A stretch of 64,000 nt of DNA, from the NCBI RefSeq assembly GCF_900112205.1, contig NZ_FOKW01000005.1, forward strand, positions 124,001 to 188,000, written 5' to 3'. Numbering within the stretch: the first letter of the stretch is position 1; each line of letters starts with the position of its first letter. The position numbers were made by a program, and so were the translations under genes. The DNA is from Natronobacterium haloterrestre (lineage in GTDB: Archaea > Halobacteriota > Halobacteria > Halobacteriales > Natrialbaceae). Below are positions 35,929 through 43,190 of the stretch, in pieces. The notes under the pieces were generated by a model. The model did no database searches, was not told the DNA's origin, and saw nothing but the letters and a program-made list of their open reading frames with translations.

Positions 35929-38295
35929 TCAGAGCGAGAGGTCCGCCCGCCGGAGCAGTTGCGCGTTGATCGCCACGATCACCGTGCTCGCGGACATCAA
36001 CACCGCGCCGACCGCCGGGGAGAGCAAGACGCCGATCGGCGCGAGCACGCCCGCGGCCAGCGGCAGGGCGAAGACGTTGTAGCCGGCAGCCCAGGCGATG
36101 TTCTCCTGCATCTTCCGGTAGCTCTTCGCGCTCAGCCGGACGAGACGTGCGACGTCCCGCGGGTCGTTCTCGACGAGCACCACGTCAGCCGACTCGACGG
36201 CGACGTCGGTCCCCGAACCGATAGCGATCCCGACGTCCGCCCGGGTCAGCGCCGGCGCGTCGTTGACGCCGTCGCCGACCATCGCCACCAGGTGACCCCG
36301 GTCCTGAAGCTCCACGATCTTCTCGTCTTTGTCCTCCGGCAGCACTTCCGCGAAGACGGTGTCGATCCCGAGGTCGTCCGCGACGCTTCGGGCTACGTCC
36401 CGGTCGTCGCCGGTCAGCATCGCCACCTCGACGCCCATCCCGTGAAGCGCGTCGACCGCCTCGTAGCTCGCGTCGCGGATCACGTCCGCCAGCGCGATCG
36501 CGCCGACGACCTGCTCGTCACGGAGGACGTAGACGACCCCCTCGCCGCGCTCACCGGCGTCGTCCGCGAACCGCTCGAGGGCGTCTCCCGGGTCGATCTC
36601 GAGGTGACGAAGGAGGTTCGGACCGCCGACCGAGACCGTGTGACCGTCGCGATCGGTCGTATTAGCGGCCGCTCGGTCCCGGCCGGCGTCGCCGACGACG
36701 GCCGGCGGAGCCTCGCCTTCGATCGTCGCCCGGACCCCTCGCCCCTCGAGGGCCTCGAACCCACGCACGTCGGGGACCGAGAGCCCGCGGTCGCGTGCCT
36801 CCTCGCGGATCGCCTGCGCGATCACGTGTTCGGAGTCGCCCTCCGCGGCGGCCGCGAGGGTCACGACGTCGTCCGGGTCCGGGTCCGGGTCCGGGTCCCG
36901 GTCCTCGAGCGCCGTCACGTCGACGACGCCCTGTTCCCCCTCGGTGAGGGTCCCGGTCTTGTCGAAGACGACCGTGTCGAGCTCGCGGGCCCGTTCCATC
37001 GCGATCCGGTCGCGTACGAGGATGCCGTTTCGTGCGGCCATCGAGGTGTTGATCGCGACCACGAGCGGGACGGCCAGCCCGAGCGCGTGCGGGCAGGCGA
37101 TGACGAGGACGGTGACGACCCGTTCGACCACTGGCAGGCCGAATCCGACGGCGACGGTCCAGGCGACGGCCGTCACCGCCGCGACGCCGACCGCGGCGTA
37201 GAAGAGCCAGCCAGCCGCTCGGTCGGCCAGCACCTGGGTCCGGGAGCGGCTCTCCTGGGCCTCCTCGACGAGCCGCATGATCCCCGACAGCGTCGTCTCG
37301 TCGCCGGTCGCCGAGATTCGAACTCGGAGGCTGCCCTCCCGGTTGGTCGTTCCGCCGATGACCTCGTCGCCCGGTTCCTTCCCGACGGGTTTCGACTCGC
37401 CGGTGACCATCGCCTCGTTGACCTTCGACTCCCCCGTCTCGACCACGCCGTCCGCGGGGACGTTCGCCCCGGGCCGGACGAGCACGAGGTCGCCCTCCTC
37501 GAGCACGTCGACGGGGACCTCTTCCGTCTCGCCGCCCTCCGAAACCCGTTCGGCCGTATCCGGCAGCAGTTCCGCGAGTTCGTCCAGCGCGCCCGACGCG
37601 CGCCTGACGGATCGCATCTCGATCCAGTGGCCGAGCAGGAAGATGACGATCAGCGTCACGAGTTCCCAGAAGAACGGCTCGCCGATCCCCGACAGGGCGG
37701 CCGCGAGGCTGTAGACGAACGCGACGGCGATCGCGAGCGAAATCAGCAACATCATCCCCGGTTCGCGGTTTCTGGCCTCGACCGCGCCCATTCGGAGGAA
37801 GGGCACGCCGCCGTATGCGAAGACGATTACGCCGAAAACGGGACCGACGAACTCGCTGCCCGAAAACTCGAGGGCGGCGTAGCCGAACCACTCCTGGATC
37901 ATCGGGCTGTAGTACAGCACCGGGAGCGCGAGGACGAAACAGACGAAGAACCGGCGTTTGAACAGTTCCTCGTGGTCCGAGTGGTCGACGTGGGCACCGT
38001 CGTCGCCGTCGCCGTCGCCGTCCCCGTCCCCGTCCCCGTCCCCGTGGTCGTGTTCGGCCCCCTCTCCTCGCTCGCGGCCGTGATCGCGGTCCTCGTCGGG
38101 CTCCCCCAACTGGCGGTCCGCCTCCGCCGTCCCCTCGAGCCCCGTCGAAGGGGCGGCACCCGATTCCGGGACCTCCCGGTAGCAGCGACAGACGCGACAG
38201 CACGAACAGTACGCGTCGGTCGGACTTCGCCCCTCGTCACGGTCCGTCCTCGTCGACCGCGGCGAGGCGTCGGGGGCGGAATCGACGTCGACCAT
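35929..38295 (-). CDS. copB: CopB-like P1B ATPase with CPH motif and Cys-rich/His-rich N-terminus
   Basis: A 788-residue heavy-metal P-type ATPase. The transmembrane metal motif is C401-P402-H403, typical of the CopB/P1B-3 group (Cu(II), sometimes Ag). D445 is the phosphorylated Asp in [13 protein letters not shown] completes the hinge. The conserved HP dipeptide reads SEHVIAQA, with Val in place of Pro. The N-terminus lacks an HMA domain. Instead it holds a Cys cluster C30, C32, C33, C36, C38 and an acidic, His-containing tract (about 80-110, with D-G repeats and HVDHSDH). It should export copper. Divergent from the membrane-anchored regulator at 38451. Confidence 0.9.
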
Positions 38296-38450
38296 AGCGT
38301 GTGAGTACGACCCACGCCGTCATAGTCCTCATCCATGCACCGTCCCAACGCCCGCCGGGAGGACGGCGAACCGGTTCGGCCGAGCGTAGCGTCGGCGGGC
38401 ACGAAAAGCGTAACACGTAGGGAACCGTCGAGCGAAAGCCGAACGGGACC

Positions 38451-39050
38451 GTGGATCGAAGGACGCTCGACAGGATGGTAGCCGCCGTCGTCGCCGGAAT
38501 CCTCCTCCTGGGTGCCGGCGCGGCCTGGCAGACCTACCGACAGGCCCAGGCTCACGCCGGCATGATGGGCGGCCACGGCGGGACGATGCACGGCGTCCAC
38601 CCGGTCTGGTACCTGCTGGGGGCCGTGCTCGCCGGGGGAATCGTCGCCGGCGCGTACGCGCTCGGTCGGGAGCAACTCGTCGGCGGGACCGAACCCGAAG
38701 CCGAAGCCGGACCCCCGACCGCGGGGAGCGAAAGAGACGACTCTCCAGCCGCTGGCGGTCACGGAAGCGGCGACGACGGAACCGGGAGCAGTGACGGGCA
38801 GCGGGCCGAAGCCACCTCGAGCGCGACGGCCGTTCTCGAGGTGCTCCCGGAGGACGAGCGCCGCGTCCTCGGGCCGGTCGTCGACTCGCCGGGGCTGACG
38901 CAGATCGAACTCCGCGACCGGGCCGATTTCTCGAAGAGCAAGGTCAGCCAGACCGTCACCGACCTCGAGAAGCGGGGACTCCTCTATCGCGAGAAACAGG
39001 GCCGTACGTATCGGGTGTACCCGAGCGACGACCTCGAGGGTGACGGATAG
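38451..39050 (+). CDS. Membrane-anchored winged-helix regulator with His/Met-rich loop
   Basis: A 199-residue protein with two membrane helices (about 9-27 and 52-72) joined by a loop holding H35, M38, M39, H42, M46, H47 and H50 (AQAHAGMMGGHGGTMHGVHP). A Ser/Asp/Gly linker (80-125) leads to a MarR-like winged helix (about 126-199: EDERRVLGPVVDSPGLTQIELRDRADFSKSKVSQTVTDLEKRGLL). The loop would face outside if both ends are cytoplasmic. Divergent from the copper ATPase gene, so a one-component metal-responsive regulator is a natural inference. GTG start at 38451. Similar membrane wHTH proteins are known in haloarchaea, but I do not know a described function for this one. Confidence 0.8.
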   Translation: MDRRTLDRMVAAVVAGILLLGAGAAWQTYRQAQAHAGMMGGHGGTMHGVHPVWYLLGAVLAGGIVAGAYALGREQLVGGTEPEAEAGPPTAGSERDDSPAAGGHGSGDDGTGSSDGQRAEATSSATAVLEVLPEDERRVLGPVVDSPGLTQIELRDRADFSKSKVSQTVTDLEKRGLLYREKQGRTYRVYPSDDLEGDG

Positions 39051-39107: not shown

Positions 39108-39863
39108 ATGGCGATCGAACACGGCGACCTGACCGTCTCCTGGCTCGGCTACGCGACGGCGCGCATCGAGGCGTCGGACGGCACCGTGGTCTACACCGAT
39201 CCCGGCCGCTACGGCACGCTCGACGGCACCTGGGCACAGCAGTATGGCGGCGCGTCCCACCCGAGCAGCGACCCCTACGACGCCCGGGACGGCGACCTCG
39301 TGGTCGTCACCCACGACCACCACTACGACGACGACGGGATCGAACGCGTCGCGAGCGAGGACGCGACGCTCGTCGTCTACGAGGACGTCTCCGCCGAGCG
39401 GATCACCGCGGGCGGCCGCGACGTCGTCCCGCGCGAGGACCTCCCCTACGACGTCCGCCGGGTCGCGTACGGCGACGAACTCACCGTCGCGGGCGTCGAC
39501 GTGGAGGTCGTCCCCGCGTACAACCACCCCGACGGCCCGAACGCGCCCGGCGGCGACCCGATCCACCCCGAGGGGTTCGGCTGTGGCTTTCGCCTGACCG
39601 TCGACGGCGTCCCCTGCTTCTGGACCGGCGACTCGGACGTCATCGACGCCCACGACGACCTCGAGGTCTCGCTGTTCCTGCCCTCGATCGCACAGAACTT
39701 CACGATGGACCGCCACGCCGCCGCCGACCTCGCCGAACGGCTCGCGCCCGACCTCGTCGTCCCGATCCACTACAACACGTTCCCCGACCTCGAGGCCGAC
39801 TCGAGGGCGTTCGCGGGGGACGTGGCGAGCCGTGGGGTGCCGGTCGTCCTCGACGAAGATTGA
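39108..39863 (+). CDS. Metallo-beta-lactamase fold hydrolase (UlaG-like)
   Basis: A 251-residue protein of the UlaG-type MBL branch. It begins with LTVSWLGYATARIEA and has the zinc motif VVTHDHHYDD (HDHHYDD), a further EVVPAYNHP segment, CFWTGDSDV with the ligand Asp, and VVPIHYNTFP near the C-terminus. Members act on phosphodiesters or lactones; the substrate is unknown here. It lies between two metal-related genes but shows no metal-transport feature itself. Confidence 0.85.
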   Translation: MAIEHGDLTVSWLGYATARIEASDGTVVYTDPGRYGTLDGTWAQQYGGASHPSSDPYDARDGDLVVVTHDHHYDDDGIERVASEDATLVVYEDVSAERITAGGRDVVPREDLPYDVRRVAYGDELTVAGVDVEVVPAYNHPDGPNAPGGDPIHPEGFGCGFRLTVDGVPCFWTGDSDVIDAHDDLEVSLFLPSIAQNFTMDRHAAADLAERLAPDLVVPIHYNTFPDLEADSRAFAGDVASRGVPVVLDED

Positions 39864-39987: not shown

Positions 39988-40278
39988 ATGCGTACCCAAC
40001 TCTACCGACTCGGACTGGCCGCGCTCGTCGCCGTCGCGCTGCTGGGTGGCGCGGCGCTCGCGAGCGCCGACGATGGGACCGCCGACGCGAACGGACTCGA
40101 GTGGACCGACGCCCACGACTGGATGAGCGACCACGCGGGCGAGCACGGCAGCCACCACGAGGGTGCCCACCAGCACGGCACACACCACGCCGGCGACCAC
40201 GACCCCGGTGTCCATCACGGCGAGCAACACGAAGGTCAGCACCAGCACGACCACGAAGCCGCCGGGGCGTGTCACTGA
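39988..40278 (+). CDS. Secreted histidine-rich protein
   Basis: A 96-residue protein with a Sec-type signal (basic MRTQLYRLG, hydrophobic core to about 24, cleavage after ALASA) and a mature part of about 70 residues with 17 His between 43 and 96, in motifs such as HGSHHEGAHQHGTHHAGDH. One Cys (C95) is next to the last residue H96. It resembles His-rich metal-binding peptides. The two P1B ATPase genes flank it, suggesting a role in copper or nickel/zinc buffering outside the membrane. No enzymatic domain. Confidence 0.78.
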   Translation: MRTQLYRLGLAALVAVALLGGAALASADDGTADANGLEWTDAHDWMSDHAGEHGSHHEGAHQHGTHHAGDHDPGVHHGEQHEGQHQHDHEAAGACH

Positions 40279-40445: not shown

Positions 40446-43190
40446 TCAGCCCGTCACGCGATCGGAGACCCACACGAACGGCCGGAACGGCAGGAAGACG
40501 TAGTCCTCGTGGGGGTCCCACTTCATGAACGCCAGGCTGTTCGAGACGACCGAGACGCTCGAGAACGCCATCGCCAGCCCGGCGAGCGCGGGGTTCAACA
40601 GCCCGATCGACGCGATCGGGATCAGCGTCGCGTTGTAGGCGAGCGCCCAGAACAGGTTCTGGCGCACCTTCGAGATGGTCGCGTCGGCGACTCGCATCGC
40701 CTTCAGCACGTCTGCGGGATCGTCCCGCATCAGCGTGATGTCGGCGCTCTCGATGGCGACGTCGGTCCCCGAACCGATCGCGACGCCGACGTGCGCGGTC
40801 GTCAGCGCCGGCGCGTCGTTGACGCCGTCGCCGACCATGATCGCGCGGCTCCCGTCCGCCTGGATCGCGTCGATCTCGTCGGCCTTGTCCTCGGGCAGCA
40901 CCTCGGCGTGGACGTTCTCGGGATCGATCCCGAGCCGGTCACCGATCGCCCGGCCGGTGCGTTCGTTGTCGCCGGTCAGCATCAACACGTCGTAGCCGCG
41001 ATCCTGGAGTTCGGCGACGGTCTCCCTGGCGCTGTCCCGGACCGTGTCGGCGGTGGCGACGACGCCCAGCAACTCGTACGCTCGCGGTTCCTGCCCGTCA
41101 TCGCTTTCGGCTTCCGCGGTGCCAGACGCCGCGCTCTCCAGCGCGACCAGCATCGCGGTCTTCCCCTCCGACTCGAGGCGTTCCATCGTCGCCTCGACGG
41201 GCGCGGGATCGACGCCGTTGTCCGCCATCAGTTTGCGGTTGCCGACCAGCACCTCGCCGTCCGAGAGCGTCGCGCGGATGCCGTGGCCCGGGACGTTCTC
41301 GAACTCGGTCGGCTCCTCGAGGTCGACGCCGCGCTCCTCGGCCCCCTCGACGATGGCCTGTGCGAGCGGGTGCTCGGAGCCGGATTCGGCGCTGGCCGCG
41401 ACCGAGAGCAGGAGGTCGTCGTCGACGGCCCGTTCCCGTTCCCGTTCCCGTTCCTCTGTCTCGCGATCAGCGAGCACGCCACCGTCGGGTGCCGGCGTAC
41501 TGCCGTCGGACCCGCCGTCCGTCTCGAGGGCCTCGTCGACCGGCACGACGTCGGTCAGTCGCATGTCGCCGTGGGTCAGCGTCCCCGTCTTGTCGAAGAC
41601 GACCGTGTCGATGCCGCGGGCCTTCTCGAGGATGTCGGCACCCTTGTAGAGGACGCCGTTTTTCGCCGACAGCGTCGAGCCGACCATCGTCGCCATGGGG
41701 GTCGCCAGCCCCAGCGCGCAGGGACAGGCGATCAGGATCGCCGAGGCGAGCACGATCACGGAGAACTCGAAGACGGGCACGCCACCGAGTTCCGGACCGA
41801 TCGGCCCACCCCCGACGGGCTGGAGTACCGGGATCCACCCGCCCAGCGACGAGGCGATCGGGTACAGCGCGTCGTGGAAGAAGAACCACAGGACCGACCA
41901 GACGACGGCGTTGACGATCACCGCGGGCACGAAGTAGGCGCTGACCGTGTCGACCAGCCGCTGGACGTCGGGCTGGCGCGCCTGGGCCTCTTTCACCCGT
42001 GCGACGATCTGCTGGATTGCCGTCTCTTCGCCGACGTTGGTCGCCTCGACGTAGAGGACGCCGTTCTCGTTGATCGTCGAGCCGACGACCTCGTCGCCCT
42101 CGCCTTTCTCGACGGGGACCGACTCGCCGGTGACCATCGACTCGTCGACCGCGCTCTGGCCGTCGACGACGACGCCGTCGGTCGGGATCTTCTCGCCGGG
42201 CCGGACCTTCATCACGTCGCCGGGTTCGACCTCCTCGAGGGGGACGACGCGTTCCTCGCCAGGGACGGCGTCGCCGTCCGCCGGAGGCGTCTCCCACTCG
42301 ACGACGGTCGCCTCCTCGGCCTGCATCTCGAGCAGTTCACGCAGCGCCGAACTCGCGCGGGCCTTCGAGCGGGCCTCGAGCCAGACGCCCAGGTAGATGA
42401 ACCACAGGATGAAGGCGACGGCCTCGAAGTACAGTCCCTCGCTGGCGATGAGATCGAAGAGCACCGCCGTGCTGTAGACGTATCCGACGGAGGTGCCAAG
42501 CGCGACGAGCGTGTCCATGTTCGCCTGGTGGTTGTTGACCAGGGACTTGTACGCGCCCGCGATGAAGTGCCGGCCGAGCGTGGCCATCAGCGCCGTGGCG
42601 AAGAGGAACTCGACCCAGTCGAACCACTCGGGCAGGAACTCGACGGCGAACATCTCGGCCATCACGAGCAGGAACGGCGCGGCGAGGAGGCCGCCGACGA
42701 TCGTCCACCGGCGCTTCGTCCGGAGTTCGCGCTGGACGGCGCTCTCCCGCTGTTCGGTCAGTTCGTCGCCGTCGTCGCCGGCGCGTTCGGGTTCGAACCC
42801 CGCGTCCTCGATGGCGTCGTAGATCGCCGCCAGCGAGGTGTCCTGGGGGTTGAACTCCACCGTTCCCTCTTCGGTCGCGTAGTTGACCGTCGCCGAGAGC
42901 ACGCCCGGGATGTCCTCGATGGCGTCCTCGTTCGTCCGGGCGCAGGTCGAACACGACATGCCGGCGATCTCGACCGTCGTCTTCGTCCGGTCGGGTTCGT
43001 AGCCGGCGTCCTCGATCGTCGCGTAGATCTCCGACAGCGAGACCTCGTCGGGATCGTACTCGACGGTCCCCTCGTCGGTCGCGAAGTTCACGTCGACGGC
43101 CTCGACCCCCTCGAGGTCGCCGACGGCCTCCTCGACCGTCCCGGAACACGTCGCACACGACATCCCGGAGATGGCGATGGTAGATTTCAC
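40446..43190 (-). CDS. copA: Copper-exporting P-type ATPase CopA with two HMA domains
   Basis: A 914-residue P1B-1 ATPase. Two N-terminal heavy-metal domains carry GMSCATC (C12, C15) and GMSCSTC (C80, C83). The transmembrane metal site has C489-P490-C491 (ACPCALGLA), with Y-N and M-S-S motifs in later helices ([21 protein letters not shown]). D533 in DKTGT is phosphorylated; [12 protein letters not shown] and GDGVNDAP are all intact. It exports Cu(I). A run of E-R repeats ([12 protein letters not shown]) interrupts the P/N region. Start is GTG 43190. A TTTTTATT element lies about 90 bases upstream, possibly giving a leader. Confidence 0.96.

Follow-up and report, generated by a model that had tools for sequence, protein, structure and literature searches.

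The window, a 64,000-nucleotide stretch of DNA from Natronobacterium haloterrestre, encodes a protein that we read as a one-component transcription regulator anchored in the membrane and controlling copper handling, with a loop rich in Met and His as its sensor; we put the probability of this reading at about 0.55. The reading as a copper-linked membrane regulator is well supported; the reading as the copper sensor of copB is unproven. Because the protein is recurrently encoded beside copper-handling genes, it is probably a direct switch of those genes that senses metal at the cell surface.

The regulator gene and its neighbours

The window sits on contig C13 of a 4.5-Mb genome, whose nearest named relatives among those found are Natronococcus, Natronoglomus, Natronorubrum and other Natrialbaceae. 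As defined from the ORF list, Pfam, AlphaFold2 and the family alignment, the gene for this MarR/DUF7343 transmembrane regulator (38451..39050, + strand) has a GTG start and encodes 199 aa. The gene for a CPH-type P1B ATPase (35929..38295, - strand; ORF list and Pfam) starts 155 bp away and is transcribed divergently. Its CopB-like product has a His-rich N-terminus and no HMA domain, and we presume this gene, here called copB, to be the target. An earlier note on this DNA had described the divergence from a CPH-type ATPase correctly; the range that it gave for the regulator, 38296-39050, contains the gene and also takes in the intergenic region, the gene proper starting at 38451. Downstream of the regulator lies a gene for a metallo-beta-lactamase fold (39108-39863). 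Further along are genes for a small His-rich protein with a signal-like N-terminus (39988..40278, +), which belongs to no Pfam family, and for a CopA-like copper ATPase with two HMA domains (40446..43190, -; Pfam), both of them likely members of a copper locus. Relatives of the small His-rich protein occur in 9 of the 106 family loci at the thresholds used. The source genome encodes 11 heavy-metal ATPases above cut-off.

Domain organisation and predicted fold

In order, the regulator consists of a helix, the Met/His loop, a second helix, an acidic linker and a MarR/DUF7343 winged helix. The winged helix domain (residues 134-190; 38850..39020, +) was located by Pfam and is nearly invariant in the family alignment. 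MarR_2 (PF12802) scores 36.2 bits against a cut-off of 27 over residues 138-184, and DUF7343 (PF24034), named merely as a domain of unknown function, scores 34.2 bits against 27.6 over residues 134-188; PF01047 falls slightly below its cut-off (23.9 versus 24.6 bits). All 40 members of family alignment A1 match both MarR_2 and DUF7343 at E 0.001. Hydropathy, with maxima at residues 9-27 and 52-72, and AlphaFold2 together predict a helix at residues 3-38 (38457..38564, +), of which about 9-27 would be in the membrane, and a transmembrane helix at residues 51-76 (38601..38678, +).

In the AlphaFold2 model, a monomer computed with 40 homologues as input, these two helices flank the loop and are followed by a disordered linker (78-115), a helix (115-131) and the winged helix. 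Local pLDDT is mostly 74-89 in the helices and winged helix and about 60 in the loop; given a mean pLDDT of 68.6 and a pTM of 0.36, the parts of the model are usable and their overall arrangement is not. Model, hydropathy and Pfam scores all bear out the helix-loop-helix followed by a MarR-like wHTH that the earlier note had read from the sequence. A Foldseek search with the model returned nothing at E 0.001 or better, the top matches being mostly MarR proteins, and a sequence search of the PDB gave a single weak match (2eth, E 0.005).

A conserved Met/His loop

The loop, placed at residues 34-52 by the family alignment (38550..38606, +), is predicted to lie outside the cell. Its Met and His residues are H35, M38, M39, H42, M46, H47 and H50, and the numbering proposed previously is exact against the 199-aa translation. 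Seven Met or His among 19 residues exceeds what chance would give, with a binomial p of ~5e-6 at an assumed background of 4%, and of 9.5e-11 at the 0.8% background of the family's linker and winged helix. A ligand set of His and Met without Cys suits Cu(I) and Ag(I).

Family statistics were taken over 101 distinct proteins from the 106 loci, from which L045, L046 and L053 were dropped as their N-terminus was not alignable, leaving 98 full-length members. At least three loop Met/His residues are present in 98/98, at least two Met in 97 and at least one His in 92. Loops are 15-28 residues long, the median count being 4 for Met and 1 for His, and these two residues make up 25% of the loop on average, as against 0.8% of the linker and winged helix. 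Loop Cys is absent from all 98 members and loop Lys/Arg from 92. The M39 column is Met in 92 of the 98 and the H47 column His in 88, with G48 and P51 after it kept in 96 and 95; His in the H35 and H42 columns (13 and 12 members) is largely confined to the window's clade.

In membrane proteins the side rich in Lys and Arg faces the cytoplasm, the positive-inside rule. Across the 98 members, Lys and Arg average 2.5 per member in the N-terminus, 0.06 in the loop and 1.2 after helix 2. With an N-terminus averaging 2.5 such residues, the rule would place the loop on the outer face of the membrane and the winged helix in the cytoplasm, and from these sequences we infer this topology in the cell, in agreement with the extracytoplasmic loop suggested earlier.

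The Met-rich SHOCT hairpins encoded in the same operons were considered as relatives of the Met/His hairpin. Profile comparison gave a probability of 85%, but over no more than 19 TM2 columns, and one of 2% for a second SHOCT type; homology was accepted in neither case. Two family loci, L045:5764-6225 and L046:5842-6435 (Haladaptatus, Actinarchaeum), encode variants without the Met/His hairpin; their different, Cys-containing start has a stretch reading MISCSL, followed by a single predicted membrane segment. Cluster 60, a group of related HTH proteins, is represented by the gene adjoining the L046 member and by one near the L045 member.

Linkage to copper-handling genes

The 106 loci are mostly ~14.6 kb long, with 6-kb flanks for the named ones and shorter flanks at contig ends, and include one duplicated record (L042/L059). 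Neighbour marker names are based on Pfam. A P1B ATPase, multicopper oxidase, cupredoxin or DUF411 gene lies within ~7 kb in 75 of the 106 loci (P1B ATPase in 52, cupredoxin in 26, multicopper oxidase in 18, DUF411 in 8). Other markers are a Met-rich SHOCT protein (69 loci), a secreted Met/His protein (62), a YHS/ArsP permease (50), DUF302 (41) and a His-rich protein (9). When the permease and the secreted Met/His and His-rich proteins are added to the four copper families, 91 loci have at least one marker; the 15 loci without any of these seven core markers count against a copper regulator. Every marker scored 0 in 20 control loci around other wHTH relatives. Five of the markers (SHOCT, secreted Met/His, DUF302, DUF7546 and permease) were themselves derived from loci of this family, so it is these controls and the four established copper families that carry weight. 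Clustering at 70% identity reduces the set to 43 representatives, with a P1B ATPase at 17 of them and at least one of the four copper families at 23; for a random 14.6-kb window we estimate a P1B ATPase frequency of ~4%, derived from the 11 ATPases of the source genome.

Within the window's clade a divergent P1B ATPase frame is found at 12/12 loci, two of which (L033 and L035) keep a remnant only, and at L034 and L064 a SHOCT gene lies between the regulator and the divergent ATPase. The remnants, at L033:5343-5845 and L035:5305-5961 (Natronococcus), are N-terminal parts of copB beside an intact regulator and the conserved promoter blocks. In other clades the ATPase is on the same strand or convergent, so the linkage persists through rearrangement. 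Where the closest ATPase is within 1.5 kb, it is of the CPH type in 18 of 23 cases. By motif pattern, ATPase frames of more than 500 aa comprise 28 CPH, 19 CPC and 15 of neither type, and inspection by eye of the ATPases of 14 loci placed SPC and CPG types among the pattern-negative ones; the presence of such other types (SPC or CPG motif) at several loci counts against our main reading. The earlier note had called the protein a one-component metal sensor for copB. Comparison supports part of this, namely the family-wide loop, the charge pattern and the recurrent copper-gene linkage in several orientations; 'for copB' is too narrow, because most members sit in other operons, with a YHS/ArsP permease, secreted Met/His protein, Met-rich SHOCT protein, cupredoxin or multicopper oxidase.

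Conserved promoter blocks

The region between copB and the regulator has diverged among the clade's 12 loci, two blocks excepted. These are GAAAAGCGTAACACGTAGGG before the regulator gene (38403..38422, +) and TGCATGGATGAGGACTATGA before copB (38320..38339, -), each the top-scoring window site for its matrix and a candidate operator or core promoter. The regulator-side block, 32-45 nt before the gene, is RAARCGTAACAGGTAGG-like and has variants in 12/12 loci of the clade; the copB-side block is GTGTGAGRAYTATG-like, with a matrix built from nine sites, and was not found in L066. The two are not clearly one sequence, which counts against the main reading. Because they are positioned where BRE and TATA should be, the blocks could be core promoters, operators or both; that they may be core promoters and nothing more also counts against the main reading.

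The Met-rich clade has a different but similar element, AATCAMAACTGGTACA, with the core AACWGGTA in common, usually 68-69 nt before the regulator and likewise at the expected place of BRE and TATA. A search for it over 1.79 Mb gave 89 sites at threshold, 60 of them before a regulator gene and 3 in the 20 control loci; the remaining sites are scattered and mostly low-scoring. With the same matrix over all loci (1.79 Mb), no operator common to the other operon genes was found.

Outside the window's clade, 63 of 88 distinct upstream regions contain a mini-ORF, mostly of 12 codons, whose TGA overlaps the regulator start (ATGA, GTGA, TTGA); that of L112, for example, lies 35 nt before the start. 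The mini-ORF ATG is mostly near the expected start of a leaderless transcript. None of 27 distinct 35-nt leaders has an in-frame stop, and as their codon positions vary alike the peptide is not conserved. The overlap possibly serves translational coupling.

Distribution of the family

Among 125 genomes of the same taxonomic family we found 41 full-length matches (E < 1e-38) in 34 genomes, the next match having an E of 3e-13. Across the order, 121 of 392 genomes, from 45 of 95 genera, match at E 1e-20 or better. A phylum-wide sample of 392 genomes contains at least 26 that match at E 1e-25 or better. These 26 all belong to the haloarchaeal order, and no relative from outside that order is among the matches listed at this threshold; the best 8 candidates per genome were scored, so the counts are lower bounds.

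Named members are carried on plasmids of Haloarcula marismortui (pNG600), Halobacterium hubeiense, Halorubrum, Salinigranum and Natrinema. Wherever a gene is annotated under the match in 36 plasmid records, its product is 'MarR family transcriptional regulator'. The gene order on pNG600 is permease, regulator, hypothetical protein, SHOCT, DUF302, SHOCT, thioredoxin and plastocyanin/azurin. Upstream of these are genes for a P-type ATPase and an HMA protein, and genes of the AsnC family, YHS and DUF411 are close by. Identical regulator scores (293.8 bits) recur across different genera (e.g. G222, G293, G306, G308 and G353), which suggests a recent spread of these regulators, probably carried on plasmids.

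Proposed mechanism and alternatives

These observations allow us to propose a mechanism in which two transmembrane helices would hold the Met/His loop (15-28 residues) outside the cell and the MarR-type winged helix inside. Binding of Cu(I), or Ag(I), by the loop would change the helix hairpin, and this change, passed on via the linker, would alter how the winged helix dimerises or how far it reaches, and with it how firmly the regulator holds the core promoters of copB and its own gene. Because the conserved blocks lie at BRE/TATA positions we lean slightly, as a guess, towards metal releasing a repressor over metal-dependent activation. More tentatively, at not quite even odds, the protein may be a minimal copper sensor, a DNA-bound one-component regulator whose entire input domain is a bare extracytoplasmic Met/His loop of 15-28 residues between two transmembrane helices. 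It would need no kinase, phosphorelay or soluble sensor to read Cu(I)/Ag(I) at the surface, and its ligands would have diversified across haloarchaea into His-rich versions with copB and Met-rich versions with secreted Met/His operons.

The same operons offer another role for the loop, that of a docking site for a metal-loaded partner (a secreted His-rich or Met/His-rich protein, a SHOCT hairpin protein or the ATPase), with the regulator still controlling copper genes. Candidate partners are frequent (secreted Met/His protein in 62, Met-rich SHOCT in 69 and His-rich protein in 9 of 106 loci), and His-rich loops pair with a His-rich secreted protein and Met-rich loops with a Met-rich one, each pairing being essentially one clade. 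We nevertheless regard docking as unlikely, as the soft ligands of the loop are already sufficient in themselves and the loop is kept in members without a detected partner. Still less probable is that the loop reads an oxidant, or copper-driven redox stress, through methionine oxidation instead of binding metal. Met does prevail in most loops (median 4 Met, 1 His) and multicopper oxidases lie near 18 of 106, but His occupies the H47 column in 88 of 98 members, the window's clade is His-rich, and the recurrent neighbours recognised include no Met-sulfoxide reductase, an enzyme not itself a search target.

Control of copper genes could also come from elsewhere in the source genome, where contig C7 encodes an Lrp/AsnC protein (L189) that matches TRASH below threshold, a finding that counts against the main reading. 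CopR activates copA in other archaea (PMC7830388), and copB might likewise answer to a cytoplasmic CopR-like Lrp/TRASH regulator, leaving the membrane regulator to serve another target or signal. We give this little credence, since the Lrp/TRASH gene is not beside copper genes within the 3.1 kb seen, whereas the membrane regulator adjoins a divergent ATPase frame at 12/12 loci of its clade. The L189 protein has a TRASH-like C-terminus below the Pfam cut-off, and its gene lies near an isopropylmalate/citramalate synthase-like gene (named by eye).

If the preferred reading, a membrane-anchored copper regulator with the loop as sensor, is true, haloarchaea gain an extracytoplasmic copper sense via a loop of ~20 residues, one of the smallest sensor domains among transmembrane regulators, and a function is given to a protein family now named just 'MarR family transcriptional regulator'. 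At such a length the loop lends itself to tests one residue at a time.

Comparison with known systems

We found no description of this regulator family, and no mention of 'DUF7343', in the open-licence literature, where subscription journals are mostly missing. In the work cited here, archaeal copper regulators are of the CopR/Lrp type with a TRASH domain, and none is described at the membrane. MarR proteins form dimers through their terminal helices and have a ligand pocket; the regulator's winged helix scores above both curated cut-offs (PF12802, PF24034), and the protein differs from the usual MarR in its membrane anchor. Bacterial CopY and ArsR-SmtB proteins are winged-helix repressors of metal efflux genes, with a Cys metal motif in CopY/TcrY. 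In contrast, the regulator of the window contains no Cys and scores far below both models (CopY_TcrY, 13.8 bits against 121.95; HTH_metalloreg of ArsR/SmtB, 19.6 against 55).

Archaeal CopR, with an Lrp/AsnC-type HTH and TRASH, is, like the regulator, an HTH protein divergent from a copper ATPase gene, in its case copA (PMC7830388). It differs in having the TRASH metal domain, which is absent from the regulator's Pfam matches up to E 1, and no membrane anchor is described for it in the sections cited. In Haloferax alexandrinus under silver stress, too, the evidence is for an Lrp regulator, encoded next to copA (PMC10694973).

A further likeness is to transmembrane transcription regulators (TTRs), which combine a transmembrane region and a DNA-binding domain in one protein and of which 1,384 were counted in archaea (PMC10269533). 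The regulator has both sequence features of a TTR, a predicted DNA-binding domain and a predicted transmembrane region, and so shares the build of CadC, ToxR and archaeal ArnR. Membrane-anchored one-component regulators are a known class (PMC10269533), and the earlier suggestion of an undescribed type holds for the copper-linked family with the Met/His loop, as far as the open-licence literature goes, and not for the class; MarR, copper, metal and Halo- do not occur in the main text of that paper. The HTH of ArnR is N-terminal and its two TM segments are C-terminal, with a HAMP/sensing region in addition (PMC6396743), whereas in the regulator the helix hairpin is N-terminal and the winged helix C-terminal. 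What further sets it apart from TTRs is its linkage to copper genes and a predicted sensor that, in place of a folded domain, would consist of a Met/His loop of 15-28 residues.
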